From the NCBI GenBank assembly GCA_902764235.1, contig CACWVH010000003.1:12020-49698 (forward strand): DNA of 37,679 nt, given 5' to 3'. The notes below the pieces were generated by a model. It was not told where the DNA came from. It did no database searches and saw nothing but the letters and a program-made list of their open reading frames with translations. Numbering within the stretch: the stretch's first letter is position 1; each line of letters begins with the position of its first letter. This DNA is from an uncultured Ruminococcus sp. Lineage in GTDB: Bacteria; Bacillota; Clostridia; Oscillospirales; Acutalibacteraceae. This document shows positions 1,110-36,760 of this stretch, one piece after another. The position numbers were made by a program, and so were the translations under genes.

Positions 1110-2336
1110 CTATTGTGTTATCGCTGCCTGCTTTTGTACAATTTTATTATTATAATCTGCCATATTTTCCGCAAATACGGCATAACCGTGTACCGGATCG
1201 TCAATATATACATGAGTCAGTGCTCCTACGAGTCTGCCGTTCTGTATAATAGGACTTCCGCTCATACCCCTGACTATTCCACCTGTTTTTTCGATAAGAC
1301 GCTTATCGGTTATCCTTATTACCATATTTTTAGACGGGGTACTGTTGTCATAGCTGATATCCTCAATTTCGACATCATAGCATTCAGGCTCGCTGCCTTC
1401 AATAGTGGAGAGCATTGATGCACTGCCCTTTGTCACTTCCTGACGGAAGGCTATTTCTATTTCTTTACCGGGAGAAATATCGCTGTACGTTCCGTAAAGC
1501 CCGCATTCACTGTTTGCCCTGAGCCTTCCGAGAGGCTCGCCTGAGGTAAAACAGCCGCAAAGGCTACCGGGGCTTCCGCCGATGCTTTTATCTGCCGAGA
1601 TTATATCAGCCGGAACGATATCGCCGTCTGCCAGCGGCATGAGACTTCCGCTGTCACCGTCATATATACCGTGTCCGAGTCCTGCAAAGGTTTTTGTATT
1701 TTCATCAGTAAAGGTTATCGTCCCGATCCCGGCACAGCTGTCGCGCACCCACAGTCCCAGACGATAGCTGCCAAGCTGCACATCCATTTCAGGAATTATG
1801 GTGGTACTAAAATAATCACCGTTTCTTCTGCATCTGAGAAGTATCGGGCTGCCTCCGCTTTTTTCACAGATCTGCGTAAGCTGTTCATTTGTTTTCAAAG
1901 CTTCACCGTTTGCTTCAAGAATAATATCTCCGCAGCGTATTCCTGCCTTTGAAGAAGGATCCGAGCTTCCGCCTTCAACAGGTACAGAGGAGGTTTTTGC
2001 AACAACAAGACCATCTGTATAAAGCCTTATCCCAAACGGTTTTCCACCAAGTGTTACCGTCTGTCTGTCGCTCAGGTGTACGTCAACGCTTTTTACAGGA
2101 AGAAGTCCGAAAAGCTTTATCTCTGCTTTTGTATTCAGCCGGTCCGATGTTCCGTAAGCCCCTGTACTTTCTGTAAAGCACAGGGTATATGCGGAATTAT
2201 CACCGAAGCTGTAGCCTCCGTTTTTACAAATAGTGATCTCATCCGGAGTTGTCTGTGCTGAATAGGCACAAAAGCCCATTGCGAACAAGCTCAGAGCCGC
2301 CAGTGCCGCACTGAAGGCTCTGAATATTCTTTTCAT
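1110..2336 (-). CDS. spoIVB: SpoIVB peptidase (stage IV sporulation protein B)
   Basis: Secreted or membrane-tethered serine peptidase of 408 aa. In sporulating relatives SpoIVB is made in the forespore and cleaves SpoIVFA, triggering pro-sigma-K processing in the mother cell. An N-terminal hydrophobic segment (about 5-26) is followed by a PDZ domain (about 100-185) and an S55 peptidase domain with GLGHGIYD (H222) and the catalytic serine motif GMSGSP (S359). Length and motifs fit the family. The ATG follows GGAGGTGATGAT. Upstream, only 68 bp separate it from the stop of the KAS III-like gene, and no clear terminator lies between. Read-through from the biosynthetic operon is therefore possible. 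In many clostridia recN sits in this upstream position; here a biosynthetic operon does. Confidence 0.95.
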   Translation of the reverse strand: MKRIFRAFSAALAALSLFAMGFCAYSAQTTPDEITICKNGGYSFGDNSAYTLCFTESTGAYGTSDRLNTKAEIKLFGLLPVKSVDVHLSDRQTVTLGGKPFGIRLYTDGLVVAKTSSVPVEGGSSDPSSKAGIRCGDIILEANGEALKTNEQLTQICEKSGGSPILLRCRRNGDYFSTTIIPEMDVQLGSYRLGLWVRDSCAGIGTITFTDENTKTFAGLGHGIYDGDSGSLMPLADGDIVPADIISADKSIGGSPGSLCGCFTSGEPLGRLRANSECGLYGTYSDISPGKEIEIAFRQEVTKGSASMLSTIEGSEPECYDVEIEDISYDNSTPSKNMVIRITDKRLIEKTGGIVRGMSGSPIIQNGRLVGALTHVYIDDPVHGYAVFAENMADYNNKIVQKQAAITQ

Positions 2337-2404: not shown

Positions 2405-3337
2405 TCAATATCTGAATATGAGAATATTACAGGTAAGTCCTGCAGCTGTTCCTGTGAGCATTACATTATCGCCGTGCCTTATCTTATTTTCATGTATCGC
2501 AGCGCAGAGCATGAACGGTACGGATGCCGAGATCATATTTCCATAATCCTTTACCCTGTCTATGTATTTATCCTTTCCGATACCGAGCCTGGGCATGATA
2601 TATCCCAGCGCCTTACTTGCCTGATGAGGAATGACAAGTGCGATATCATCAAAGCTCATGCCTGAGCTTTTTATGCTTTTTTCAAAAAAGGACGGAAGAT
2701 TGTGTGCACAAAGCCTGAGCACCCTTAGCCCCTTCATATCAAAATAATAATCATCCCTGTTTTCTTCGTTCATTTCAAACGCAGATTCAAGAGCACAGCC
2801 GCCTCTTATCTCTGTATCATGTGCGCCCTCCGACCAGGTTTTCTGTGCTGCAAACAATACTCCGCTGTCCTCATCTGTACCGCTGACAACAAAGGCTGCT
2901 GCTGCATCTGAAAAAAGCTCATAGCTTTCCCTCTGCTTCGGATTCAGTGCCGCAGATGCGGTATCTCCGGAAACAATCAGTATATTCTTATATCTTCCGC
3001 TGTCCGTCAGATATGCCGCCATATCAAATGCTGTGATGAAGCTTGTGCAGGATGTATTTATATCCATTGCAGGAATATCCGTGCCTTTTGCAATGCGCTC
3101 ATGTATAAGTGCGGCATTACAGGGTATCGCCTGAAGCGGTGTTGCCATTCCGGCGATTATCAGATCTATCTCCCTGATATCAAGTCCTGCGTCACAAAGT
3201 GCGCCCATTGCTGCACGCTCCGCAAGATCAAGCAGAGTCTGTCCTTTTTGCAGTCTGTACCTTGTCTGGCTGCCGAATTTTACCTTTCCTCCGTCAGGCA
3301 GAACAGCTGCACATCCGGTTATTTTTATTTTTCTCAT
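2405..3337 (-). CDS. KAS III / OleA-like thiolase-fold condensing enzyme
   Basis: Condensing enzyme of 310 aa in the 3-oxoacyl-ACP synthase III family. The Cys-His-Asn triad is complete: C97 in NTSCTSF, H238 in IPHQASK and N267 in YGNMISAS. The C-terminal GTAAGLTCNI fits the KAS III C-terminal domain. Such enzymes make Claisen condensations from acyl-CoA or acyl-ACP substrates, and OleA in the same superfamily joins two acyl-CoAs. I chose the ATG at 3337, preceded by GAGGAC; a longer upstream frame would overlap the adenylate-forming gene. It is the last gene of the five-gene operon, 10 bp after its neighbour. No acyl-carrier protein, malonyl transferase or other fatty-acid gene is nearby, so a role in specialised metabolism is more likely than in housekeeping lipid synthesis. 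The substrate is unknown. Confidence 0.85.
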   Translation of the reverse strand: MRKIKITGCAAVLPDGGKVKFGSQTRYRLQKGQTLLDLAERAAMGALCDAGLDIREIDLIIAGMATPLQAIPCNAALIHERIAKGTDIPAMDINTSCTSFITAFDMAAYLTDSGRYKNILIVSGDTASAALNPKQRESYELFSDAAAAFVVSGTDEDSGVLFAAQKTWSEGAHDTEIRGGCALESAFEMNEENRDDYYFDMKGLRVLRLCAHNLPSFFEKSIKSSGMSFDDIALVIPHQASKALGYIMPRLGIGKDKYIDRVKDYGNMISASVPFMLCAAIHENKIRHGDNVMLTGTAAGLTCNILIFRY

Positions 3338-3347
3338 TTTTTTGTCC

Positions 3348-4625
3348 TCATGTTTTTCTCTGGCTTTCAACACGCCTGAGCTTTCTGCCTTTTTCACAGC
3401 TGTACGGATAAAATCTCAGCTCCGGCAGTAAGAAGCTCTTATCCGCAGAAAGCTGTCTGAATTCCTCTGATATTTTTTCCTTAATCAGACTGCTCACATC
3501 ACAGAAAATATCAATACCTCCGTCAGACCTCTGTACAATACGATAATCCGAGATATCACCTGCAAACAGTATGCACCGGCGGATAAAATCCGGAAATACC
3601 TTCACTGCCTTTCCGTCTGTCCCGTTAAAAACAAATACATCATCCTCACGCCCCTCTATCCGCTCAAGAGCTGTAAAGACACTGCCGCAGGGACATTCAT
3701 ATTCCCTTTCCACAAGAACATCATTAAGCTTGTATCTTATCACAGGCTGAGCAGTTCTTTCAAAATCGGTAATGATAGGAATAAACCTTCTTTTGTCGAT
3801 ATATTCCTTTTCAATATATACTATATCCTCATTAAGATGCAGAGTTCCGCAGCGGCAGGTCGTCGCAAGACAGCCCTCCGTACACTGATAGACCTGATGT
3901 ATGACATCAAGTCCGAATGCCCTTTTCAGTATCTGCTCATCCTCTTTTTCAAGCACCTCAGCTATTGAAATGACTGTTTCGGGATGAATACTCAGCCGTC
4001 CGCTTTCGATCTTACGGGCAAGTATCAGAAGCATTGAGGGCTGGGCAACTATTATATCCGCATTAAAGCTGCGCAGCCTGTCTATATTATTCTCAAGATC
4101 AGCATATATATCAAAAAATTCAAATCTAATATCAGACGAACCCACTGATTCATAAAGATTGCTGTTTGCCCTCATAAAAAATGCCACATTGTACTTAGCA
4201 GTTATTCCTCTTTCAAGAAATTTTGCAAGCACAAAGCCTGCCCATTTATCCTTTTCGCTGTCCTCAACAAGGAATATACCTCTGCTGTGTGAGGTACCTG
4301 AGCTGAGTCCTACCGTTATGTTATGCAGCTTTGGGGAAAAGCTGCGTTTTCTTTCGCTGTTTACAGCAAATTCCATTGCCTCGTCCTTGTTTATTCTGAC
4401 TGTATTGATTATGTCAAAATTATCCATCATTATTTTTTTATCAATAATGGGAAGGCTTTCAAGCATTTTTCCCATGAAACGATGATAAAACGGTGAATTC
4501 TCAGTCACAAATGAAAGATGTCTGTTTATCATCCTTTTCTGAAAAAATTTAAGCTGTCTTGCTGAATAGAATTTTCTGTACCTGAATAACAGATAATATT
4601 TAAGGATATTTAATTTATTACTCAT
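3348..4625 (-). CDS. Adenylate-forming enzyme (F390 synthetase / phenylacetate-CoA ligase-like)
   Basis: Small ANL-superfamily enzyme of 425 aa, resembling the putative adenylate-forming or coenzyme-F390-synthetase-related clade. Motifs in order: the phosphate loop SSGTSHSRG (108-116, lacking the usual final Lys), YQCTEG (246-251), RYKLND (297-302) and GREDD (325-329), ending with a lysine in GRKLRR (K415) where the catalytic lysine is expected. Cysteine pairs C257/C259 and C311/C313 could bind zinc, as in phenylacetate-CoA ligase relatives. Expected chemistry is ATP-dependent activation of a carboxylate. OleC of the olefin pathway is an ANL enzyme that makes beta-lactones from beta-hydroxy acids, so that is one possible role. 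The ATG follows AGGAG and overlaps the hydrolase stop by 8 bp, indicating translational coupling. Substrate unknown. Confidence 0.8.
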   Translation of the reverse strand: MSNKLNILKYYLLFRYRKFYSARQLKFFQKRMINRHLSFVTENSPFYHRFMGKMLESLPIIDKKIMMDNFDIINTVRINKDEAMEFAVNSERKRSFSPKLHNITVGLSSGTSHSRGIFLVEDSEKDKWAGFVLAKFLERGITAKYNVAFFMRANSNLYESVGSSDIRFEFFDIYADLENNIDRLRSFNADIIVAQPSMLLILARKIESGRLSIHPETVISIAEVLEKEDEQILKRAFGLDVIHQVYQCTEGCLATTCRCGTLHLNEDIVYIEKEYIDKRRFIPIITDFERTAQPVIRYKLNDVLVEREYECPCGSVFTALERIEGREDDVFVFNGTDGKAVKVFPDFIRRCILFAGDISDYRIVQRSDGGIDIFCDVSSLIKEKISEEFRQLSADKSFLLPELRFYPYSCEKGRKLRRVESQRKT

Positions 4626-5427
4626 ATTTTTTCTCCTGCATCGCTCCGTGCGAAAAGATGATCTTTATTTCCGGATGAAATGAGGAAAATGCACGGAGTC
4701 TTTTTATAGTGTCGATATACTGTCTGTAACTGTGCTGTATAAGTCTGGGTATAAACCGCATTTTTTCAGCATGATCCATAAGGTCTGTGCCCCAGCAGGC
4801 ATCAGCCGCAAGCAGCAGTTCAAATTCAGGAAGAAATATCCCCAGCTGACCGTATGCATGACCGTCAAGCTCAATTCCGATAATTGATCCATCGCCAAGG
4901 ATATCATATGTATTCCGGAAAAAACCGTCAAAAATTGTTTTACCGCTGTATTTTTTCAGTGCCCTCATATGCGGACGGTTTTCCGGGACCATATTTCTGA
5001 ATACAAGATCAAAGCAGTTCCCTGTATAAAGCGTATTGAGAACCTTAGGAGTTGAAATGAGCTCATAGCTTCTGAAAAGCTTCAAGGCTCCGATATGATC
5101 GGGATGAGCATGAGACAGTATTATCCTTTTCACGCTGTCAGGAGATATACCGTCAGCTTCAAGCTTTGAAATAATTGTCTCGTTTTCCCTGATAAATGTT
5201 CTGTTGAGTGTATTGTAGATTTTTGAAACTATCCCGTTTTCATATATCAGCTGAGAGTAACCTGTATCAAATAATATATTGCCCAGATCTTCATGGGTTA
5301 TCAGCGCTGCAAGAGCAGGAAAGCTTCTCCTCTCAGGCGGAAAGCTTTTAAAAACATGACTAAGCTCATTTTCACAGCAGCCGCAGGCATACAGCTTAAC
5401 GCTTCTGAGCCTTCTGATATCGTCCAT
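4618..5427 (-). CDS. Metallo-beta-lactamase-fold hydrolase
   Basis: A 269-aa protein with the full MBL metal-ligand set: HAHPDH (106-111), H190 in DGHAYGQ, D209 in AADACWG and H260 in FSHGAMQ. It should bind two metal ions and hydrolyse an ester, thioester, lactone or similar bond. The fold is close to lactonases (AHL-lactonase group) by motif spacing, which is inference only. The start at ATG 5427 is favoured over an upstream in-frame TTG because AAGGA lies 10 bp before it. It overlaps the reductase gene by 32 bp and the adenylate-forming gene by 8 bp, so the three are tightly coupled. In this operon it occupies the place of the alpha/beta hydrolase OleB in olefin clusters, or acts as a thioesterase that releases product. 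Confidence 0.85.
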   Translation of the reverse strand: MDDIRRLRSVKLYACGCCENELSHVFKSFPPERRSFPALAALITHEDLGNILFDTGYSQLIYENGIVSKIYNTLNRTFIRENETIISKLEADGISPDSVKRIILSHAHPDHIGALKLFRSYELISTPKVLNTLYTGNCFDLVFRNMVPENRPHMRALKKYSGKTIFDGFFRNTYDILGDGSIIGIELDGHAYGQLGIFLPEFELLLAADACWGTDLMDHAEKMRFIPRLIQHSYRQYIDTIKRLRAFSSFHPEIKIIFSHGAMQEKKYE

Positions 5428-6388
5428 AATCCTCAATTCCTTCCGAGATAGTTTTTACAGGCTTATATCCGAGCTTTTCCTTAGCCTTTGTTATATCAAG
5501 CGTCTGCGAAAAGGCAAGTGTGCAGACTGTATATCTTGTCAGCGGCGGTTCGCCAGGCTTATCCTTTTTTCTCCATTTGTTTTCCAGACTGCATGATATC
5601 CTGTAAACGAGTCCGAAGGGCAGCCTGAGATATTTAGGCTTTTCACCGATAGCTGCAAGAAATTTTTCAAGTATTATCCTGAATTTCATAGGCTCGCCGT
5701 TAGTGATATTGAATACCTCATTATCTATCCCGTCCTTTTGTGCTGCAAGTATACAGGCATGAGCAACATTTTCCACACAGGTGATATCCACGTAGTTTTC
5801 TCCGCCGTTGAAAAGTGGTATTCCTGATTTTTTATTAGCCTCAAGTATTCTCGGTATCAGACTTGTATCCCCTATACCGAAAAGCCCCCTCGGGCGTATT
5901 ATTACGGTATAAAGACCCATTTTATGAAATTCTTTTATTACATCCTCAGCAAGTATCTTCGATTTTATGTAATAATTCAGATCGTTGTTTTCATCGAAAT
6001 CATCCTCCCTGATGCTGAAGCGATGCAGCCTGCCTGAATAGATACTCGGCGATGAAACATATACGATACGGCTGACATTATTTTCGATACACAGCTCACA
6101 GATATTGTTTGTTCCCTCAACATTTATGCGGAAAAAATCCTCCCATTTTCCCCAGACCGTTGAAAGCGCACCTGCGTGTATAACACAATCTATGTCTTTG
6201 AAAAATCCGGCACATTCTGTTTTATTTGTGAAATCTCCCTTACAGAACACTGCACCAAGCTTACTGAGTTCCTCTCCAGCCTTTTCATTTCTTCCCAAAG
6301 CATATACGTTATAACCCTTGTCAATAAGCTGTCTGACAAGATATTTCCCAAGAAAACCGGTAGCTCCGGTCACAAGTATATTATTCAT
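5396..6388 (-). CDS. NAD(P)-dependent epimerase/3-beta-HSD-type reductase (OleD-like)
   Basis: Extended short-chain dehydrogenase of 330 aa. The Rossmann motif is TGATGFLG (G8, G11, G14), an Arg follows strand 2 (ALGRN, R33), which suggests NADP(H), and the catalytic tyrosine and lysine are Y140 and K144 (YIKSK) after VSSPSIY. Overall it resembles the 3-beta-hydroxysteroid dehydrogenase / OleD branch, which reduces a beta-keto acid to a beta-hydroxy acid, more than sugar epimerases. That choice rests on sequence character and neighbours. The start at ATG 6388 follows GGGGAGG at ideal spacing; the upstream in-frame extension is not needed. It lies 22 bp after the glycosyltransferase gene. A sugar-modifying role supplying that glycosyltransferase is the main alternative. 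Confidence 0.85.
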   Translation of the reverse strand: MNNILVTGATGFLGKYLVRQLIDKGYNVYALGRNEKAGEELSKLGAVFCKGDFTNKTECAGFFKDIDCVIHAGALSTVWGKWEDFFRINVEGTNNICELCIENNVSRIVYVSSPSIYSGRLHRFSIREDDFDENNDLNYYIKSKILAEDVIKEFHKMGLYTVIIRPRGLFGIGDTSLIPRILEANKKSGIPLFNGGENYVDITCVENVAHACILAAQKDGIDNEVFNITNGEPMKFRIILEKFLAAIGEKPKYLRLPFGLVYRISCSLENKWRKKDKPGEPPLTRYTVCTLAFSQTLDITKAKEKLGYKPVKTISEGIEDYGRYQKAQKR

Positions 6389-6410
6389 TTTTTCCTCCCC
6401 TGATCCGGGA

Positions 6411-7598
6411 TCATTCATTATTTCTGTTTAAAAGAGCCTCAAGCTTTTCCATAAGCTCATTCATCCTTATATCATTGAATTCGCGGATAAGCCTTTCATC
6501 CGCAGTATAGCTTTCTGTAAGCTCACGGGCTTTTTTCTGTATTCCTTCCGTCCCGTGAATAACAATTCCCAAGCCCGGCTTTTGCAGCATCTTTGCATTG
6601 ATAGCCTGTTCCCCCTGCTGTGGACAGATCAGACACGGCACTCCGTTTGCTGCTGCCTCACATATACTGTTCATACCTCCTGCGGAGATAAAAAGCCTTG
6701 CTTTTTTCATTACAGCCTGCTGGTCGGTATATTTCTTTATTATAATGTTTTCAGTCAGGTCATACTTATCTTGTTTATCAAAAAGCAGCGAAGAAGAAAT
6801 TATTACTGTAAAATCCGTTCCGGAGAATTCTTTTATTATCCCCTGCCAGAATTTCTCACTGCTGTTAAAAACCGTACCGAGAGAAACATATATCATGTTT
6901 TTATAATCATAATCATCCGGGTCAGAAAAAGTGGTTTCTCTCAGAAGGGATGAGGGCCCGAGAAAAAAGTCACGCCCTGTCATCCTGCTTTTATCAGGAT
7001 GCAGCAGACCGGGATATGTATATACATTCAGCTCCGCCTTATTCATCAGAATATCCAGAAGCGCTGCTTTTGTTATCTTGTATCTGCGTTTTATTATCCT
7101 GTTGTTCTGCCATACAGAAGGCAGAAATTTCAGTTCTCTCACACAGCCTGCGGAAAACCTCATTGTATACATAAGAAATGCTCTGCTGAAAACAGAAGGC
7201 ACTGTAATTATCGTATTAATGCTTACAGAGGAGATATGCAGGATTTCCGAGACCGCTCTTCCCCAGAATGCAAGCGTATCAAAAATTATAAGATCAGGTG
7301 AAAGCTCCCCTGCACAGTGCAGAAGTCCGTCAAGTACCCGCAGAGTAAAACGCTGAATCAGTTCCGTAAGCTCAAGAAGTCTGCTTCCGACTGTTGTATC
7401 AAATACAATATCTCCAAGCTCATATTCAATGAATTCAGCTCTGACAGATTCTGCTGCCGGTCTGAATTCCTCTGTTCCATAAAAAATCACCCTGCAGCCG
7501 CTTTCTGAAAGCTCTCTTAGTACAGGGAGTACCGGGTTAACATGACCATAAGCAGGAGTGCTGTAAAAAATGATTGTTCCTGTTAATTGCCTTTTCAT
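6411..7598 (-). CDS. MGT-family glycosyltransferase (GT1), first gene of the operon
   Basis: A GT-B glycosyltransferase of 395 aa related to macrolide and other UDP-glycosyltransferases. The N-terminal half has PAYGHVNPVLPV with the acceptor-side catalytic H19. The C-terminal half has VSLGTVFNSS (238-247) and the donor-binding segment SAGGMNSICEA with the late Glu-Gln pair (E330/Q331). The conserved His of the usual H-x-G-x-N donor motif is replaced by A306. These enzymes attach a sugar to small hydrophobic acceptors, so it could glycosylate the product of the four downstream genes. ATG 7598 follows GGAAG; the GTG nine bases upstream has no usable ribosome site. A consensus promoter lies about 50 bp upstream. 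It is a distant paralogue of the gene at 8382. Confidence 0.85.
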   Translation of the reverse strand: MKRQLTGTIIFYSTPAYGHVNPVLPVLRELSESGCRVIFYGTEEFRPAAESVRAEFIEYELGDIVFDTTVGSRLLELTELIQRFTLRVLDGLLHCAGELSPDLIIFDTLAFWGRAVSEILHISSVSINTIITVPSVFSRAFLMYTMRFSAGCVRELKFLPSVWQNNRIIKRRYKITKAALLDILMNKAELNVYTYPGLLHPDKSRMTGRDFFLGPSSLLRETTFSDPDDYDYKNMIYVSLGTVFNSSEKFWQGIIKEFSGTDFTVIISSSLLFDKQDKYDLTENIIIKKYTDQQAVMKKARLFISAGGMNSICEAAANGVPCLICPQQGEQAINAKMLQKPGLGIVIHGTEGIQKKARELTESYTADERLIREFNDIRMNELMEKLEALLNRNNE

Positions 7599-7631
7599 CG
7601 ATCTCACTTCCGAAAAAGTATGACTGCTCTG

Positions 7632-7834
7632 TTATCAGTTGTTATGATTATATTACATTTACAAAATATTGTCAATACACGAAGATTTTTTATACATTAT
7701 TTCTATATATAATACAAAATTTTGTATAACTACTTTGTTATTAGTTATTATGATTATATTTTATCTACAAGAAAACATCAATATATAAAGAATTTTTTAT
7801 GTATTATTTCTATATGCGATACAAAATTTTGTAT
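7632..7834. repeat. Tandem duplication (about 106 bp unit) of promoter plus palindrome
   Basis: Copy 1 (about 7632-7727) and copy 2 (about 7738-7834) are imperfect direct repeats. Both contain TATGATTATATT, a stretch resembling TTTTTTATRYATTATTTCTATAT, and end with the perfect 16-bp palindrome ATACAAAATTTTGTAT (7712-7727 and 7819-7834). Both also hold a minus-strand promoter: TTGACA/TATAAT in copy 1, and TTGATG (7781-7776)/TATAAT (7758-7753) with 17-bp spacing in copy 2. The palindromes look like regulator binding sites, each about 40-60 bp upstream of a -35 box. Confidence 0.75.
7647..7675 (-). promoter_or_regulatory. Consensus sigma-A promoter of the biosynthetic operon
   Basis: On the minus strand, -35 TTGACA (7675-7670) and -10 TATAAT (7652-7647) are separated by 17 bp, a perfect match to consensus. 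The predicted start near 7640 leaves a leader of about 40 nt before the glycosyltransferase ATG. Confidence 0.8.
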
Positions 7835-7840
7835 TACTGA

Positions 7841-7869
7841 TTGACAAAACTTATTTTTTAATATATAAT
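7841..7869 (+). promoter_or_regulatory. Consensus promoter of tRNA-Leu
   Basis: TTGACA (7841-7846), a 17-bp spacer and TATAAT (7864-7869) lie 22 bp before the tRNA 5' end. The second ATACAAAATTTTGTAT palindrome ends 6 bp upstream of the -35 box. Confidence 0.85.
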
Positions 7870-7891
7870 ACCTTAGTAATTTAAATTATCT

Positions 7892-7973
7892 GCGGGCGTG
7901 GTGAAATTGGCAGACACGCAAGATTTAGGTTCTTGTGCCGTAAGGTGTGCAGGTTCAAGTCCTGTCGCCCGCA
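7892..7973 (+). tRNA. tRNA-Leu (anticodon UAG)
   Basis: An 82-nt cloverleaf without encoded CCA. The acceptor arms GCGGGCG and CGCCCGC pair fully, with discriminator A. The anticodon stem CAAGA/TCTTG closes the loop TTTAGGT, giving anticodon TAG (codon CUA). The T arm contains GGTTCAAGTCC, and a long variable arm marks it as class II, as expected for leucine. A perfect promoter lies upstream and a strong terminator 12 bp downstream, so it is transcribed alone. Confidence 0.97.
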
Positions 7974-7984
7974 TTTGTCCTATA

Positions 7985-8028
7985 CAGCATACACACTTTT
8001 TACTATGTGTGTATGCTGTTTCTTTTTT
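7985..8028 (+). terminator. Terminator after tRNA-Leu
   Basis: A perfect 12-bp stem (CAGCATACACAC at 7985-7996 with GTGTGTATGCTG at 8007-8018) has a 10-nt loop and is followed by TTTCTTTTTT. Confidence 0.92.
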
Positions 8029-8098
8029 ATACATAATAGACAGGCTGCTGAGCCTGCCGGTTACAAATAAACAAAATTAAAAAAATTTGTTTTTATAC

Positions 8099-8145
8099 TT
8101 GACTTTATTATTATAAGGTGGTATGATTTGTATAACAAATCATAC
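8099..8145 (+). promoter_or_regulatory. Promoter with overlapping palindromic operator, abrB-like/MGT operon
   Basis: TTGACT (8099-8104), a 17-bp spacer and TATGAT (8122-8127) form a near-consensus promoter. A perfect inverted repeat with 11-bp arms GTATGATTTGT and ACAAATCATAC and an ATA centre (8121-8145) covers the whole -10 box and the start point. Occupancy would block transcription. The AbrB-like protein made from the same transcript is the obvious candidate for autoregulation, but this is inferred from position only. Confidence 0.8.
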
Positions 8146-8166
8146 TTATTTACTGAGGTGACTATT

Positions 8167-8381: not shown

Positions 8382-9776
8382 ATGAAAAGAATTGCTTTCT
8401 TCTGTATTCCTGCTCATGGTCATACAAATCCTATGCTCCCCGTAGCTGCACAGCTTGTAAAAAGAGGCAACCTTGTGCGCTTCTATTCATTCAATGAATT
8501 CAATGAAAAGATCATTTCGACCGGTGCTGAGTTTGTTTCCTGTGACGAGTTTCTCCCGGAAATCAACGATCGGGAAATGGAAGCTTTAAAAAACAGCTCG
8601 ACAACGGAAATGTCAATTCAGGATATCCGCATTACTCTGAGAATGAACGATTTTCTTGAAAAGGAATTCAAAGAATTCCGTCCGGATGTTGTTTATACTG
8701 ATGCTGTCTGCTTCTGGGGTAAGCTGAATGCATGGAAGCATAATGTTCCGATGGTCGCTTCCACAAGCACATTCGCATTTAATCAGATGTCCACGAAATA
8801 TATGAAGAACAGTCCCGGAGAGCTTGCCGGTATGATCTTAGGACTGCCGAGAGTTGCAAAGGAACTGAAAACACTTGAACCATACGGCTATCATGTAAAA
8901 AATACGATCTCACTTGTCCAGAATGATAACAAAACCGATTCCATTGTTTATACATCAAGAAGATTCCAGCCATATGCGGAAAGCTTTTCAGATCATTACA
9001 AATTCGTGGGGCCGTCTGTTTTTTCTGACAAGCTGCCGGACAAGAATAACGACAGACCGCTTGTGTATATTTCTCTCGGAACAGTTATCAGTGACAAGCC
9101 TGATTTTTACAGCAAATGTCTTGAAGCCTTCAAGGATATGGATGCAGATGTCATTATTTCCTGCGGCAGATATATTGATATAGCTTCACTTGGAGCCATC
9201 CCGGAAAATATAAAGGTTTTCAACCGTGTGGATCAGCTTGATATACTTTCAAGAGCGGATGTTTTTATTACACACTGCGGTATGAACAGTACGTCAGAAA
9301 GTCTGTATATGGCAACGCCGATGGTTCTTTATCCTCAGACAAACGAGCAGCGTGCTGTTGCAAGAAAAACAAGCGAGCTGGGTGCAGGCGAGCTTCTTAA
9401 AGACGACTCTGTTAAAGGCATCAGAAAAGCTGTTGAAGATATTCTCGGCAACAGCTCATATGCCAGGGCTGCAAAGGAATGCTCAGATGATTTCAGAGCT
9501 TGTCCCGGCACGGTGGGTGCTGCTGAATTTATCGAAAACGCACCCCACAGCTCAAATGGTATCGACCCCCTTGAGGAGCTTAGAAAAGCTGACGGCAGAT
9601 TCAGACTTTTTTACTGGATCATAGCTATAATAATGATACTTACAGGGATTTTCCTGGGATGGAATTTTGTCTGGATAATAGGAATTGCCGCAGGTGTACT
9701 TTCCTATCCAATTTCAAGTGCTACACAGGGCATCAGATACAACAATATTATAAAGAAGCTGCCGAAAGCCGAATAA
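8382..9776 (+). CDS. MGT-family glycosyltransferase with C-terminal membrane anchor
   Basis: GT-B glycosyltransferase of 464 aa. PAHGHTNPMLPV carries the N-terminal catalytic H14. YISLGTVISDKP (229-240) and THCGMNSTSESL (donor-site H298, intact here) with NEQ (321-323) form the nucleotide-sugar site. After the catalytic part (about 1-385) come two hydrophobic helices (about 408-426 and 428-446) and a basic tail. These would anchor it in the membrane with the enzyme in the cytoplasm. It shares layout with the 6411-7598 gene but is about 70 residues longer because of the anchor. A membrane lipid or lipophilic metabolite is a plausible acceptor. It is co-transcribed with the AbrB-like gene and ended by a strong terminator. 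Confidence 0.88.
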   Translation: MKRIAFFCIPAHGHTNPMLPVAAQLVKRGNLVRFYSFNEFNEKIISTGAEFVSCDEFLPEINDREMEALKNSSTTEMSIQDIRITLRMNDFLEKEFKEFRPDVVYTDAVCFWGKLNAWKHNVPMVASTSTFAFNQMSTKYMKNSPGELAGMILGLPRVAKELKTLEPYGYHVKNTISLVQNDNKTDSIVYTSRRFQPYAESFSDHYKFVGPSVFSDKLPDKNNDRPLVYISLGTVISDKPDFYSKCLEAFKDMDADVIISCGRYIDIASLGAIPENIKVFNRVDQLDILSRADVFITHCGMNSTSESLYMATPMVLYPQTNEQRAVARKTSELGAGELLKDDSVKGIRKAVEDILGNSSYARAAKECSDDFRACPGTVGAAEFIENAPHSSNGIDPLEELRKADGRFRLFYWIIAIIMILTGIFLGWNFVWIIGIAAGVLSYPISSATQGIRYNNIIKKLPKAE

Positions 9777-10099: not shown

Positions 10100-12838
10100 A
10101 TGCCAAAAAAATATTTTTTCACAATTAATCTGCTTATCAGAAGCGATACAAATATAAATAATGCTGTCAGTTCTGTTATAGGAGATGAACGTTTTTTCAA
10201 GCAAAATGTTCAGCTCGTGCTTATTGACAGCGTAGGCAGCAGACTTTCTGTTGAGGTGTGCACACAGTACAGCAGCCGCTATCCAGATAACGTGTTTTTT
10301 GTTGACGCAGAGGGCGAAAAGCCTGCCGAAGCCTATAACCTTGCCGCTCCACTTTCGAGCGGTATTTATATCTCTTATATTGATAATTACGGAACCTATT
10401 CGCCAAAAGCACTCAGCAATGTTTTTTCAATGATAAAAAGCGGCCGTGTACCCATACTTTGTATCCGTCCCATGCGTTCTGTTATGCTTTCAGATGATAT
10501 TCCCTACAATGACTCAATGGCTAACGGTACTGTTCACCTTCAGGATACCCCTGATAAATTCATTTTGTTTTTAGGCGCTTACTTTTTTCACAAAAGAGTT
10601 GTTGCAAAGCTCCGATTTGATAAGAAACAGCGTTTTCATTATGATGTAAAATTTCTTATCAAGGCTCTGAAAAGACCGATGAATTACGTTTATTCCGACA
10701 GATGCAGCTACACCTCAAGTTGTCCCTGCGAACAGGATATCAGAAGATATGAACCCCAGTATTCGGCAGTTTTCTATACAAAATCAGTAAGGGATTTCAT
10801 TATCCCGATGCTGAAAAAATACAGCGATATAAGCTTCATAATGTATATTATGATGTATCTGATCGAGGTCAAATTTGCTCTGAATGCAGATGATGATTAC
10901 AAAAAGGTTCTTATCGGCAGCCATGTAAAGGAATTCCTTGATATCTGTTCAGAAGCACTTCAGTATATAGATGATACGGTCATCCTCAACCGCAGACTCT
11001 GTTCCCTCAGCGGAATGGATGAGGAAATGCTTTTCAGATTCATCAGAATGAAAAGAAAGGATCCTGATCTTTTTCCCGAGGTCGATCTTGTTTCTCCTCG
11101 GGATAATGTTGTAGGAAAATACAGGGTCTCAGAAAACAGGATAGCTGCACTCCCTCTCAGCGGCGAATTCGTCTGTCATATAGACGGTGTTCTGATCTCA
11201 AGATCAAAGGATATAGTTGCAGAGATCAGAACTCTTAATTTCGACGCCGAGGGAATATACATAGATGCAATACTCAGGGGCTGCTCTTATCTTGATGAAA
11301 AGGATTTCAGCGTTTATTCAGTATATAACGGCGAAAGACGTCCTGTCATACGTTCTCATGTATATACACTGAGAAAATACTTTGGTCAGTCCTTTCTTAA
11401 AAGATATTCCTTCCGGTTCTTCATACCTGTTGACAGAGCTTCAAAAATTGACACTGCAAGCCTTAATTTCAGATATAAAAATCTCGGCTTTCGTATGATG
11501 CTGTCCTTCCCCGGCGCATATTCAAAGCTTTCTGATGAAATGAGATCGTCATATGCGCTTTTCGGAGATAAGGTACTGATCTATGATACTAAAAGCAAAA
11601 CTCTTGTCATAAAGAGAGCTACAGAAAGTCTTGTTGCTATATCTGAATCAAGATTTCTCGGAGAGATAAGGAAAAGATCCGGCTTCCGTGAAAAACTTTA
11701 CTACAACAGGATAAGGAAAAAATCCAACGCTGCCGCCAAAAAAAATGACAGCAAAAAAATTGTCCTCTTCTATGAGGACAAGGGAATCAACTATAACGGA
11801 AGTCTTTTATTCAGATATTTCTATAAACACAAGCTCCGGGATTTTGAGCCGTACATATGTGTAAAAAGGGATTCGCCCGAGCATGAATTTCTTCTTGACA
11901 AGGGCTATGACAATGTCCTGGAAACAGGCTCCTTTAAAGCAAAGGTAATAACACTTGCCGCTGATATCATATTTGCCGAGGACTGTGATCCATATGATTC
12001 GCTGGGCTTCAACGACAAGGACAAGCTTTACCTTCGTGATCTTATGACGGCTATGACGATCTCTGTAAAGAACTATTTCATGACATATGAAACCGCACAG
12101 TACAATAACAGACTCAGAGATAATACCCAGATGGTATTCTGTGCGTCCGAAAAGGAAAAGGAAAATCTTCTTCTTCCTATCTATGATTATGATGAAAGCA
12201 TGATAAAGGTAACAGGCAGCGCTCTGCTTGACGCTGTAAACAAGAACAAGGAAAAGATCATTCTTATTGCGCCTGGCAAAAGAAAGCTTTTCAAGATCTA
12301 TGAGAATTCAAGCTACTACCGCTTTACGGAAAGCTCATTTTTCAAGGCGTACAACGAGCTTCTGTCCGATAAGGATCTGCTTGAGGCATGCAAGCTTTAC
12401 GGCTGGCACATTGCTGTGCTTATGCCGAAATCAATCGAGAAATACGCTTCTCTTTTCCCTGATGATCCATCGGTCAAGGTCTATCCTTACACCGAAAATA
12501 CAGAAACCATTCTTCTTTCAAGAGCAAGTACGCTTGTGACCGACTATTCTGATCTGCAATACAGATTTGCATACCTTGGAAAAAGCGTCATGTACTTTTT
12601 CCCTCAGGGACTGCCGATAAATTCCGAGCATAAGGGCGAAGGCATAACCAGAAACGGCTTCGGCGAGGTGCTCTTTGAAAAGGACGAGCTTTGTGACAGG
12701 CTTATCAGAGGAATGGAAAACAATTTTGCCAGAAGTGAAAAATACAAGCTCAGACGTGACAATTTCTTCGGCAAGCAGGACAAAAGCAATTGCCGCAGGA
12801 TATATGAACAGACTATCAAGATCATCAGAAGTATTTAA
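10100..12838 (+). CDS. Bifunctional glycopolymer enzyme: GT2-like domain plus CDP-glycerol glycerophosphotransferase-like domain
   Basis: A 912-aa cytoplasmic or membrane-peripheral enzyme. Residues 1-110 resemble a family 2 glycosyltransferase nucleotide-binding half (VQLVLIDSVGS, then AEAYNLAAPLSSGIYISYID in place of the usual D-x-D loop). A middle part (about 330-490) is probably an all-beta domain. The C-terminal third (about 550-905) matches the glycerophosphotransferase (TagB/TagF) family: KKIVLFYEDKGINYNGS, a central segment with VYPYTENTETILLSRASTL, and the typical end LVTDYSDLQYRFAYLGKSV. Such enzymes extend teichoic-acid-like or capsular phosphopolymers. The GT2 D-x-D is not clear, so that domain may be divergent. 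RBS is GGAG, with a consensus promoter upstream. It stands alone, without other wall-polymer genes in view. Confidence 0.8.
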   Translation: MPKKYFFTINLLIRSDTNINNAVSSVIGDERFFKQNVQLVLIDSVGSRLSVEVCTQYSSRYPDNVFFVDAEGEKPAEAYNLAAPLSSGIYISYIDNYGTYSPKALSNVFSMIKSGRVPILCIRPMRSVMLSDDIPYNDSMANGTVHLQDTPDKFILFLGAYFFHKRVVAKLRFDKKQRFHYDVKFLIKALKRPMNYVYSDRCSYTSSCPCEQDIRRYEPQYSAVFYTKSVRDFIIPMLKKYSDISFIMYIMMYLIEVKFALNADDDYKKVLIGSHVKEFLDICSEALQYIDDTVILNRRLCSLSGMDEEMLFRFIRMKRKDPDLFPEVDLVSPRDNVVGKYRVSENRIAALPLSGEFVCHIDGVLISRSKDIVAEIRTLNFDAEGIYIDAILRGCSYLDEKDFSVYSVYNGERRPVIRSHVYTLRKYFGQSFLKRYSFRFFIPVDRASKIDTASLNFRYKNLGFRMMLSFPGAYSKLSDEMRSSYALFGDKVLIYDTKSKTLVIKRATESLVAISESRFLGEIRKRSGFREKLYYNRIRKKSNAAAKKNDSKKIVLFYEDKGINYNGSLLFRYFYKHKLRDFEPYICVKRDSPEHEFLLDKGYDNVLETGSFKAKVITLAADIIFAEDCDPYDSLGFNDKDKLYLRDLMTAMTISVKNYFMTYETAQYNNRLRDNTQMVFCASEKEKENLLLPIYDYDESMIKVTGSALLDAVNKNKEKIILIAPGKRKLFKIYENSSYYRFTESSFFKAYNELLSDKDLLEACKLYGWHIAVLMPKSIEKYASLFPDDPSVKVYPYTENTETILLSRASTLVTDYSDLQYRFAYLGKSVMYFFPQGLPINSEHKGEGITRNGFGEVLFEKDELCDRLIRGMENNFARSEKYKLRRDNFFGKQDKSNCRRIYEQTIKIIRSI

Positions 12839-34121: not shown

Positions 34122-35843
34122 TTATTTTGATACTGTGATGCTGAAACTGAGAGAAAACAGAACGCAAAGGCTGTTTGTTTTATAGAGAAAAAATATTAAA
34201 CAGTGAATAATACTCCGGTGCGTTTTCAAAAATACTGAAAAAGATATTTTTCGACAAAACCCTGTCGGACTCGGACTCAAGCAAAAATATACCAGAATAA
34301 TCTCGTTCGTTCCGACAATCTTCTTTATTATTTGAGCCCCCAAGCGAAGCGAGGGGGCGTTTCTGGAGTGTTTGCAGTCAAAAACAAACTCTGAATTATT
34401 TTCAATATCTGAAAGTAATTCGTCATCAATGCTTATTTCTGAGTCGCCTGTATTGAAAATTATTTTCAATCTATCATCATAAAGATAAATTCTGTTTACG
34501 AATGTATTTACCAGCGTTTTTCTGTACATCATATCATCAACATTGCCTTTTTGTAATTGATATAGAAAGAATTTTATTTCTTGTTCAGTAATAGACACAT
34601 TTTGACTTGTTTCTATATCTAATTGCTTTTGTAAATCATCATATTCAACCGTTAATCTTGATATTTCTTGAAACAAGCTTTTTCTAACACTGTCTATATC
34701 ACATTCAGAAACAGCGGTTAATAAATTTCGCTGTTTCTTTTTGTTATCTTGCATTGCCTTTTCTATTCGTTTTATTGTAGTATTATCCTTATCACGTTCA
34801 CACAATGCAACAACTTCCTTAGCAATAATATCAATATTTTCTTTAGTTAATAGTTTACGACATTCATCTATTACAATATTTTCTATGTATTCTTTAGGTA
34901 CAGCTTTCTTGTGACAAGACTTCTTTTTTGCCCCATTGCATTTATAATAAAAATATGTTGTACTGCATTTTCCGGTTCCGGAAACCCCTGTCATCATTTC
35001 ATGACACTTTCCACAGAATAATTTAGTGGTTAATATGTATTCGGCTTTTGCCTTTTTATGGGCAGGAGCTTTTTTATTTTTATTCAAAATTTCCTGAACT
35101 ATATAAAACAGATCATCAGATAAAATTCGTGGTATTCCATTTGGTATTTCTTTATCACCAAAAGTATACACACCAATATAACGCTTATTACGCAGCATTC
35201 TCCGCAAACTGTTTTTATTGAATAAATTTCCTCTTGATGTTTTAAACCCTTGATCGTTCAATGTTTTGCAAATTTCAGTAACTGTTTTTTCAGCCGCATA
35301 CATCTCAAATATCTTTCTCACAATAGGAGCAGTTCCATCATCTATTTCATATTTTCGTTCTGAATTAACTTTAAATCCGAGCGAAATATTTCCACCATTA
35401 GCAACGCACTTTTCAGCGTTTATATTCAGACCACGCTTTATTTTTTGCGAAAGTTCAGCACTATAATATTCAGCCATACTTTCAAGCAAACCCTCAACCA
35501 ATATTCCGGATGCGTCATCAGTAATATTTTCACGAGCTGACAGCACTCTCACACCGTTCTTTTTCAGTTTTGACTTGTAAACTGCACTGTCGTACCTATT
35601 CCGAGCAAATCTATCAAGTTGATAAACAATCACATAATCAAAAAATTTTTTATTGCTGTCTGAGATCATTCTTTGAAAGTCTGGACGACTGTCATTTGTT
35701 CCGGATAGCGCTCTGTCTATGTATTCAGATACTATTGTGTAGCCGTTTTTTTCTGCAAATTCATGACATACTTTTAATTGCCCCTCAATGCTTTCTTCAC
35801 GTTGATTATGACTTGAATAACGAGCATAAATAACAGCTTTCAT
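34122..35843 (-). CDS. Large serine recombinase (site-specific integrase)
   Basis: A 573-aa enzyme for integration and excision of the element. The resolvase domain (about 1-150) has YARYSSHNQREESIEGQL with catalytic S10 and VIVYQLDRFARNRYDSAV. A recombinase domain (about 160-270) precedes a zinc beta-ribbon (about 275-330) with CGKC and paired cysteines in YYKCNGAKKKSCHKK, and a coiled coil (about 360-410). The last 75 or so residues, from about NAPSLRLG onward, are hydrophobic, Phe/Ser-rich and unlike the family; the -1 frame over the same DNA reads as a better protein. This suggests a frameshift or an inserted cassette. ATG 35843 lies 6 bp after the DUF6076-like gene, so the pair is one operon. 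Confidence 0.9.
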   Translation of the reverse strand: MKAVIYARYSSHNQREESIEGQLKVCHEFAEKNGYTIVSEYIDRALSGTNDSRPDFQRMISDSNKKFFDYVIVYQLDRFARNRYDSAVYKSKLKKNGVRVLSARENITDDASGILVEGLLESMAEYYSAELSQKIKRGLNINAEKCVANGGNISLGFKVNSERKYEIDDGTAPIVRKIFEMYAAEKTVTEICKTLNDQGFKTSRGNLFNKNSLRRMLRNKRYIGVYTFGDKEIPNGIPRILSDDLFYIVQEILNKNKKAPAHKKAKAEYILTTKLFCGKCHEMMTGVSGTGKCSTTYFYYKCNGAKKKSCHKKAVPKEYIENIVIDECRKLLTKENIDIIAKEVVALCERDKDNTTIKRIEKAMQDNKKKQRNLLTAVSECDIDSVRKSLFQEISRLTVEYDDLQKQLDIETSQNVSITEQEIKFFLYQLQKGNVDDMMYRKTLVNTFVNRIYLYDDRLKIIFNTGDSEISIDDELLSDIENNSEFVFDCKHSRNAPSLRLGAQIIKKIVGTNEIILVYFCLSPSPTGFCRKISFSVFLKTHRSIIHCLIFFLYKTNSLCVLFSLSFSITVSK

Positions 35844-35849
35844 AATTTC

Positions 35850-36722
35850 TCACATCCTTTTCATTTCCTGTTTGTAATTATTCAAGAATATCAAATACTC
35901 TGCAAATACTTCCGCAGAAGCTGTTTTGTCAAGTTTGATTTTATATTCATCACATTTTTTACTAAAATCAGTCTTTTCTTTTTCAATAACATCATCTTCA
36001 ACATAAAATTTAGTATTGCTTACCTGATTTATTATAGAATTGTATATAATCTTTCTTTTTCGGGTTGTTTGCTGATATAAATTTCTTACTGCCTGTTCAC
36101 ACATTAAATGTTCATATCCTTTAACGACTGACTTTCTATGACAGTACTTATTCTTTAGGTTGTCCGTTGCAAACCACCGTCCGCAGTGTTCGCATTTTAC
36201 CAATTTCAAACCGTTAAAAGCATAATAATATAGCAGACCATAAAACAGTTCATAAAAGGATGTAATGTTATCAATTCTCAGCCCCTTTGCATAGTCAACA
36301 TTATTCCAGTCAACAGGAATAACCGCTTTTGTGATATTATGATGAACACGCCAAATTTCAACATCTTGCATAGTTAGGTTGATCTTGTATTCACCTTTTT
36401 GCTTTATACCTCTTTTTGAAATATAACACCACCTGTCCGAGTCACTCAAAAACAAATTAATATCGAATAAATAATAAGCTGAACATTTCAACCCATACAA
36501 AAGAATTTCTTTTTCAGCTGTATTAGTTTCTAATGAATTTTTAAACCTTGAAATAAAATATTTTGAATAGGCCTTAGGTGTTGAATTTACAGCGAAAGGA
36601 AACTGTTGTTCAAGAACAGCCAAAATATTTCCAAACGCATTTTTAACCGTTCCGAGTTTGTAGCCGCCTAAATCGTCTTTTATGACCTTTACGTTTTCAT
36701 CATCAATAACCAGCTGCAACAT
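35850..36722 (-). CDS. DUF6076-like zinc-finger protein of mobile elements
   Basis: A 290-aa protein of unknown function. The central zinc-finger-like segment CEHCGRWFATDNLKN, then YCHRKS and a later Cys, resembles those in DUF6076-type proteins found next to recombinases in Firmicute elements. A basic region (TTRKRKII) and a C-terminal helical part follow. ATG 36722 has AGAGG upstream, and the GTG two codons earlier overlaps it. It is the first gene of the minus-strand operon and is driven by a perfect promoter (36761-36789). A role in DNA binding or control of integration is possible but not shown. The family name is from memory of the motif and context. Confidence 0.65.
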   Translation of the reverse strand: MLQLVIDDENVKVIKDDLGGYKLGTVKNAFGNILAVLEQQFPFAVNSTPKAYSKYFISRFKNSLETNTAEKEILLYGLKCSAYYLFDINLFLSDSDRWCYISKRGIKQKGEYKINLTMQDVEIWRVHHNITKAVIPVDWNNVDYAKGLRIDNITSFYELFYGLLYYYAFNGLKLVKCEHCGRWFATDNLKNKYCHRKSVVKGYEHLMCEQAVRNLYQQTTRKRKIIYNSIINQVSNTKFYVEDDVIEKEKTDFSKKCDEYKIKLDKTASAEVFAEYLIFLNNYKQEMKRM

Positions 36723-36760
36723 TACCACCTCTTTTCAAAAAAATGTTTCCTTTCAATTTC

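Follow-up and report, generated by a model that had tools for sequence, protein, structure and literature searches.

What is made by the five tightly packed genes on the minus strand of this 37,679-nucleotide stretch of DNA (the window) from an uncultured Ruminococcus sp., whose source genome is a 3.23-Mb draft that is 90.65% complete? From position 7598 down to 2405, the operon encodes a GT1-type glycosyltransferase (GT), an OleD-like reductase, a metallo-beta-lactamase-fold hydrolase (MBL), an adenylate-forming enzyme of family TIGR02304 and a ketoacyl synthase III (KAS III) (Table 1). A first-pass annotation had proposed an Ole-like enzyme set leading to a glycosylated lipid or lactone. From gene content, residues, kinship, co-inheritance and gene fusions, all of which could be read directly, we infer a dedicated, modular operon for a glycosylated hydroxy-acyl product resembling a glycolipid, and we give this reading, whose steps and their order are reconstructed, about an even chance (probability roughly 0.5).

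The core genes are co-inherited and partly fused

Between adjacent genes of the operon there is either an overlap of 8 to 41 bases or a gap of 10 to 22 bases, depending on the start codon chosen, which is the pattern expected of one transcript. A scan of 84,980 species genomes returned at least 559 relatives of the TIGR02304 enzyme, and the best 80 were analysed as genome_contigs loci. Locus L081, in which the open reading frame (ORF) caller gave no TIGR02304 gene, was excluded from the locus counts, leaving 79; of these, 54 are flanked on either side by 5 kb or more of sequence, and loci at contig ends enter the 79-locus figure only. Because the loci are best matches to the window's enzyme, the sample is biased towards the window's own kind, with distant forms under-sampled.

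Near the TIGR02304 gene, KAS III was found in 78 of the 79 loci, the reductase in 76, the MBL in 76 and all three in 73. The four core genes are kept in 50 of the 54 well-flanked loci, and relatives within the genus share all five genes and their order as far as their contigs permit (L039 and L040; also L041, where the GT gene is cut by the contig end), bearing out the earlier claim of one tightly packed, co-inherited operon. One core gene is absent from each of L077, L086, L105 and L122, as judged by ORF calling alone. At a distance of up to 6.5 kb and on the same strand, 28/54 loci have a GT1 or GT21 gene and 16/54 an ATP-grasp gene, with both present in 0/54.

Reductase and MBL form single frames of 612-808 amino acids (aa) in seven loci (L062, L063, L064, L066, L071, L081 and L084), two of them from the named isolates Clostridium transplantifaecale (L063) and Acetatifactor muris (L071); L065, L098 and L100 were also flagged as having both in one ORF and stand outside the seven. 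In L067, one 1052-aa protein carries the Pfam domains of GT, reductase and MBL in that order. Of all the sequence evidence, these fusions argue most strongly for a single pathway shared by the reductase, hydrolase and glycosyltransferase. For the five proteins, pairwise distances are also correlated (Mantel r 0.80-0.94, with 0 of 2000 permutations as high) over the 22 loci that were left of 33 after removal of near copies, although shared species history contributes to r.

The TIGR02304 model was exceeded in 6 of the 40 genomes of the relatives set, that is, the source genome, 5 of 24 others of the genus and 0 of 15 from other families, and 9 of 398 genomes of the phylum (source genome included) match the enzyme's alignment at E ≤ 1e-60. 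This sparse occurrence indicates that the gene is patchy and not a housekeeping one. As a control, 1 of 14 well-known genomes had a hit over the cut-off.

The KAS III enzyme groups with MxnB and CorB

Both Pfam models of the KAS III family are matched over their cut-offs (PF08541, 75.8 bits; PF08545, 69.2 bits). The catalytic triad C97/H238/N267 (CHN) is intact, and the other residues named at first sight, Y140/K144 of the reductase and the full ligand set of the MBL, are likewise in place (numbers in all three proteins are counted from their ATG starts). Against the FabH model TIGR00747, the KAS III scored about 155 bits (154.9-155.4; cut-off 292.1), while a separate FabH in the same genome (G000:C40) scored 364.5 bits, over the cut-off.

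A tree of 36 rows, comprising 24 cassette members together with MxnB/CorB, FabH and OleA, resolved three separate groups: the cassette enzymes with MxnB/CorB (support 98/94), FabH (98/97) and OleA (100/100). The tree leaves out L137 and L140, which fell among the cassette enzymes though labelled as outgroup, and three of its five FabH rows (L136, L138 and L141) were named solely via their clustering with Aquifex FabH and the source genome's own FabH. With a score under the TIGR00747 cut-off, a separate FabH in the genome and a place outside the FabH clade, the enzyme was rejected as housekeeping FabH, in agreement with the first-pass annotation.

OleA was the second identity considered. References came from five Micrococcales ole loci (198 ORFs in all), each of which holds an OleA-pattern ORF, an Abhydrolase_1/AMP-binding (OleBC) fusion by Pfam and an OleD-like ORF; the OleA of one of them (L154) scored 212 bits against OleA crystal chain 3s21, an entry of a type that we take to be X. 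campestris OleA. Entry 3S23 is described as X. campestris OleA (PMC5724707). The pattern given for OleA, EPxx[AS]x(14,18)DxxNACL (PMC7158056), was matched by 5/5 OleA and 0/36 cassette KAS III. Its catalytic glutamate, which precedes a proline in all but two of the OleA covered by one survey (PMC7064751), extends into the active site of the partner (E117 in X. campestris), whereas the window's KAS III has I71 there; across the alignment, the position is Ile in 31/36 and Leu in 5/36 cassette members, compared to Glu in 5/5 OleA. Scores of the window's KAS III against the five OleA were 33-58 bits. Without the glutamate, with the pattern in 0/36 members and outside the OleA clade, the enzyme was rejected as OleA.

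The best solved relatives by profile search were MxnB (266.7 bits), CorB (255.5 bits) and Aquifex FabH (238.2 bits). MxnB and CorB also lead the fold search made with a monomer model (pLDDT 94.2), followed closely by FabH structures, and OleA was not among the best 50 of 1436 fold matches; such Foldseek and AlphaFold results support folds only, not substrates. At 30-31% identity, MxnB and CorB share with the window's KAS III the CHN triad, a common clade in this small tree and an aliphatic residue (V94 in MxnB and CorB; PMC4578411) in place of the Glu of OleA and PpyS; unlike them, the window form has a short N-terminus. Myxopyronin and corallopyronin arise by the joining of two acyl moieties (PMC4578411), and MxnB, which has two substrate tunnels, is described as condensing two long carrier-bound chains (PMC5724707). 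Since MxnB joins chains with Val at the glutamate position, it is possible that the cassette KAS III also joins chains, by a route unlike that of OleA. No polyketide synthase gene was seen among the window ORFs listed, part of which were covered by the annotation.

Of the 36 aligned members, 28, among them the window's, lack the part of the N-terminus where FabH has the Trp/Arg that bind coenzyme A (CoA). It is retained in the other eight, which belong to loci of Bacillales, Marinisporobacter, E. coli and Ketogulonicigenium; GT1 or GT21 was seen in none of these loci.

Reductase, adenylating enzyme, hydrolase and glycosyltransferase

The best NCBIfam models of the reductase are those of OleD (NF042422/NF042423; 206.7 and 204.1 bits), followed by HpnA (132.7) and GalE (68.9). 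Neither the reductase nor any protein of 59 Micrococcales genomes, whose best score was 313.7, attains the cut-off of 580 set for OleD. On model scores alone, a sugar-epimerase reading was rejected, and the earlier placement of the reductase nearer OleD stands. The first-pass annotation had named as grounds for giving up its proposal a lack of co-inheritance, a KAS III grouping with housekeeping FabH and a reductase grouping with sugar epimerases; the genes were found to be co-inherited, the KAS III to fall outside FabH and the reductase to match OleD best.

The adenylating enzyme is a member of TIGR02304 (491.4 bits; cut-off 251.9), whose name, 'F390 synthetase-related', states no tested function. 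Its nearest solved kin, a PaaK-like ligase, is distant (1.6e-7). Residues S108, G110, T111, T249, E250, D302, R326 and K415, which we take to be motif positions, are identical in 7/7 aligned members. In a phmmer search of the 198 ORFs of the five ole loci, neither this enzyme nor the MBL gave a match even at E ≤ 1000; by BLASTP, the adenylating enzyme met one OleBC at E 5.2, and on PF00501 it scored 15.3 bits, under the cut-off of 29.9, compared to 144-151 for OleBC. With no sequence match to OleBC and PF00501 under its cut-off, OleC was rejected as its identity. Published parallels come by name: an acyl-CoA-ligase-like gene of D. psychrophila annotated as F390 synthetase, and likened to ours by that annotation, is proposed to act in acyl attachment to glycerol (PMC2649909), and a second source lists an F390-synthetase-annotated gene (PMC5467263).

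The MBL scored 41.3 bits on PF00753 (cut-off 22.7), and its ligands H109-x-H111-x-D113-H114, H193, D212 and H263 are present in 40/40 aligned sequences, the window's included. Its nearest relatives by profile and fold are acyl-homoserine lactone (AHL) lactonases (AiiA, GcL and AhlX), with which it shares the fold and the metal ligands at 17-23% identity to the leading structures. W215, three residues past the bridging Asp, is Trp in the same 40/40 sequences and occupies what we take to be the position of the catalytic Tyr in AiiA, which makes the name AHL lactonase unsafe; the score on the lactonase model AttM is also under its cut-off (57.5 versus 390 bits). PqsE matched the MBL with 29 bits only. 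The GT scored 46.0 bits on the GT28 C-domain PF04101 (cut-off 22).

The core is widespread and its accessory genes differ between lineages

The four core genes are spread over several phyla. They occur in the window's order in Streptococcus infantis, S. parasanguinis, S. sanguinis and S. pseudopneumoniae, in Enterococcus, Acholeplasma oculi and Jonesia, and in Fusobacterium vincentii; a Campylobacteraceae metagenome-assembled genome (MAG) keeps this order, but no MBL was found in it. The co-inheritance that the first-pass annotation proposed to look for among Oscillospiraceae is thus real but not special to that family, and the GT is one of several alternative accessories. GT21 was identified by Pfam in Enterococcus, Lacrimispora and a Clostridiales GWD2 MAG, with a GT21 homologue in Fusobacterium. 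In most Bacillales loci, the KAS III and reductase genes are separated by an ATP-grasp gene, and some Bacillales cassettes carry a further gene whose Paenibacillus urinalis counterpart is a GNAT according to NCBI.

An ORF resembling an acyl carrier protein (ACP) directly follows KAS III in L072, L073, L074 and L078 and was confirmed by Pfam in both loci tested (L072 and L078); L072 has FabD/FabF-type genes in addition, and L078 biotin carboxylase genes.

In E. coli, a seven-gene cluster between narI and tRNA-Tyr encodes KAS III, reductase, MBL and TIGR02304 enzyme followed by PAP2, a sterol-desaturase-family protein and an acyl-CoA desaturase. It shares the four core families with the window's operon; unlike the latter, it begins with KAS III, has other accessories and lacks a GT. 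The cluster was matched in 672 of 5426 complete genomes, in 671 of the 672 over at least 80% of the query, and its type also occurs on one plasmid record. No description of the E. coli cluster was found by searches aimed at it in the open-licence literature, and none of the cassette among the matches listed from that literature.

Two observations adjoin these subjects. A protein of ~216 aa, whose L080 copy has no Pfam match, lies next to GT21 in Enterococcus and Fusobacterium cassettes (L080:5341-5991, L082 and L037:4190-4837). In the window itself, a 4'-phosphopantetheinyl transferase gene (PF01648; 21693-22328, plus strand) lies ~14 kb from the operon and could activate an ACP that the operon draws on.

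A predicted pathway and its alternatives

In the pathway that we favour, the KAS III, as a member of the MxnB/CorB branch, would load an acyl thioester on C97 and condense it with a second carrier-bound unit, which would be a beta-keto acyl chain if the enzyme works like MxnB and malonyl-ACP if it works like FabH; the resulting beta-keto acyl compound would be formed without the glutamate base of OleA. The OleD-like reductase would then convert the keto group to a hydroxyl, and the MBL, which is fused to the reductase in some species, would free the product from its thioester or open a lactone. The TIGR02304 enzyme may adenylate a free acid, either feeding the KAS III or passing the finished acid to an acceptor. 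Finally, the GT would add a sugar to the new hydroxyl; elsewhere, a GT21-type enzyme resembling ceramide glucosyltransferase would take this step, or it would be replaced by ATP-grasp, alone or together with a GNAT-like protein, or else by the PAP2, sterol-desaturase-family and acyl-CoA desaturase proteins of E. coli. A glycosylated lipid, as guessed at first sight, is a sensible expectation for the window's operon.

Several points weigh against this pathway. For product, substrate and expression alike, it is a prediction from genes; either lactonase or thioesterase activity would be conceivable for the MBL, and the point at which the adenylating enzyme acts is a guess. The clade of cassette KAS III by itself has 81/80 support, in a 36-row tree built without PqsD, BioZ and DarB types. 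The GT is under the cut-off of the MGT model (TIGR01426; 198.8 versus 260 bits), and 9/54 well-flanked loci have no GT1/GT21, ATP-grasp or GNAT-like gene nearby, so that glycosylation is not universal. Lastly, FabH follows MxnB closely by profile, and the CHN triad is equally compatible with a plain condensation with malonyl-ACP.

These last two points also feed the best surviving alternative, which we consider unlikely, namely that KAS III works as a FabH-like primer: it would start a special fatty acid by condensing malonyl-ACP with some unusual acid that the TIGR02304 enzyme has activated, so that two long chains are not joined; a hydroxy fatty acid would then be completed by the reductase and hydrolase and glycosylated by the GT. 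The intact triad with no OleA base residue would suit such a role, as would the FabH structures just behind MxnB/CorB in both searches and the ACP-like, FabD/FabF-type or biotin carboxylase genes that follow KAS III in some loci. The enzyme nevertheless groups with MxnB/CorB and not with FabH, and the N-terminal stretch to which we ascribe CoA binding in FabH is missing in most members.

A lactone or pyrone signal is improbable. Here the KAS III would make a pyrone- or butenolide-like signal, as MxnB and PpyS make pyrones, which the MBL would destroy or mature and the GT would cap; the kinship of the KAS III to MxnB/CorB and of the MBL fold to AHL lactonases points this way, and the invariant tryptophan at what is presumably the lactonase tyrosine position speaks against it. 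A receptor gene might be present among the neighbouring gene families, which were annotated in part.

An Ole-type pathway proper, with OleA-like head-to-head condensation, OleD reduction, formation of a beta-lactone by an OleC-like enzyme, the MBL standing in for OleB to open or process the lactone, and a final glycosylation, is more improbable still. In common with OleABCD and oleACD pathways, the operon combines a condensing enzyme of thiolase fold with a reductase like OleD and a member of the ANL enzymes; the reductase is closest to OleD, scoring 111-131 bits when compared with the OleD ORFs from the five ole loci, and an OleA/OleC/OleD cluster of A. atraurantiacus includes a glycosyltransferase, with a glycosylated product predicted by its authors (PMC7064751). 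The operon, however, has a KAS III other than OleA, an ANL enzyme that does not match OleC, and an MBL and a GT in place of an OleB-like protein. From the proposed Ole-like set, then, the OleD-like reductase survives, while the KAS III lacks the glutamate, pattern and clade of OleA, and the adenylating enzyme and MBL are without a match, to OleC or otherwise, in the five ole loci; membership of the operon's enzymes in OleA and OleC is largely refuted on their sequences. Ole clusters were not detected in Firmicutes by a published survey (PMC7158056), and Clostridia are named among the classes with divergent OleA homologues (PMC7064751). For the lactonisation step in the earlier proposal, we found no evidence of a beta-lactone here.

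A degradative or detoxifying operon, in which a lactone is opened by the MBL and the acid activated by the ligase, with the KAS III working as a thiolase and the GT conjugating the substrate, would fit the often detoxifying roles of MGT-type GTs and lactonases and a possible uptake by the ABC-transporter ATPase family that 16/98 loci (by Pfam for two) encode on the same strand no farther than 7 kb away, but is the least credible reading, as the KAS III is not a degradative thiolase and adjoins ACP-like and fatty-acid-synthesis genes in other species.

Upstream region and neighbouring genes

Positions of the operon's genes, of its upstream elements and of the E. coli cluster are collected in Table 1.

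Table 1. Genes and upstream elements of the operon (window positions), and the E. coli cluster (locus positions)
Feature	Position	Strand	Remarks
GT1/MGT-type glycosyltransferase, first gene	6411..7598	-	ATG at 7598, GGAAGTGAG upstream; ORF open to GTG 7607
OleD-like NAD(P)-dependent reductase	5396..6388	-	Y140/K144 from this ATG; ORF open to 6418
Metallo-beta-lactamase-fold hydrolase (MBL)	4618..5436	-	all metal ligands; W215
TIGR02304 adenylate-forming enzyme	3348..4625	-	PaaK/F390-synthetase branch
KAS III ketoacyl synthase	2405..3337	-	C97/H238/N267, I71; short N-terminal form; ORF open to 3397
Candidate sigma-70-type promoter, perfect TTGACA-17-TATAAT	7647..7675	-	ahead of operon; consensus match only
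Tandem upstream repeat, two copies	7618..7838		spacing 106-107 nt; promoter-like site in each
Palindrome ATACAAAATTTTGTAT, operator candidate copy 1	7712..7727		upstream of promoter
Palindrome ATACAAAATTTTGTAT, operator candidate copy 2	7819..7834		upstream of promoter
E. coli seven-gene cluster	L033:5191-12072; L135:1501-8382

Around the operon start, 32 promoter-like sites were observed compared to 17.1 expected, and weight is therefore given to perfect matches only. The two tandem copies are 77% identical over a 74-nt part and 87% over a 47-nt part, and each contains one palindrome ATACAAAATTTTGTAT. These two are the only exact sites in the source draft genome; the palindrome is absent from 156 collected loci, and 0/100 shuffles of the window gave two matches. 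The confinement of exact copies to this upstream region points to a regulator private to the operon, which would act at the candidate operator.

On the far side of the upstream region lies a tRNA-Leu gene (7891-7974, plus strand) with a perfect TTGACA-17-TATAAT just ahead of it (7841-7869); an ORF that overlaps it (7898-8080) is probably an artefact. A terminator-like 27-nt palindrome (8120-8146) is followed by a MazE/AbrB-like gene (PF04014; 8128-8379, plus strand) that overlaps it and then by a second glycosyltransferase gene (8382-9776, plus strand), whose product is a true MGT (296.9 bits, over the cut-off) with an extra, hydrophobic-looking C-terminal stretch. Past the operon's other end, a SpoIVB peptidase gene (1110-2336, minus strand) starts 68 bases beyond it, so that read-through is possible, and the order of operon and then SpoIVB is also kept in the closest relative, L041. 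Farther away, a 912-aa protein (10100-12838, plus strand) combines an N-terminal GT2-like part with a CDP-glycerol glycerophosphotransferase part and is teichoic-acid-like, and at 34122-36728 (minus strand) a serine recombinase gene (PF00239, PF07508) with a neighbouring 292-aa gene, in a region with a low GC content of 0.32-0.33, likely marks an integrated element.

Implications

We tentatively propose, at somewhat less than even odds, that the core of KAS III, reductase-MBL and TIGR02304 enzyme makes an undescribed, widespread class of acyl products or membrane glycolipids, in which the head group is swapped by lineage. Its hosts, named with the same reserve, would be gut and rumen Clostridia, oral streptococci, enterococci, fusobacteria, Acholeplasma, bacilli, E. 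coli and others. For the four-gene core, found across several phyla and in bacteria as familiar as E. coli and oral streptococci, the literature searched describes no product, and the genes concerned at present carry no annotation beyond 'F390 synthetase-related', 'MBL fold' and 'NAD-dependent epimerase'. If the proposal of one lipid family with exchangeable head groups is true, a single expression in another host would account for such genes in many genomes, and could bring to light a signal or a lipid of the cell surface from bacteria common in gut, rumen and mouth.

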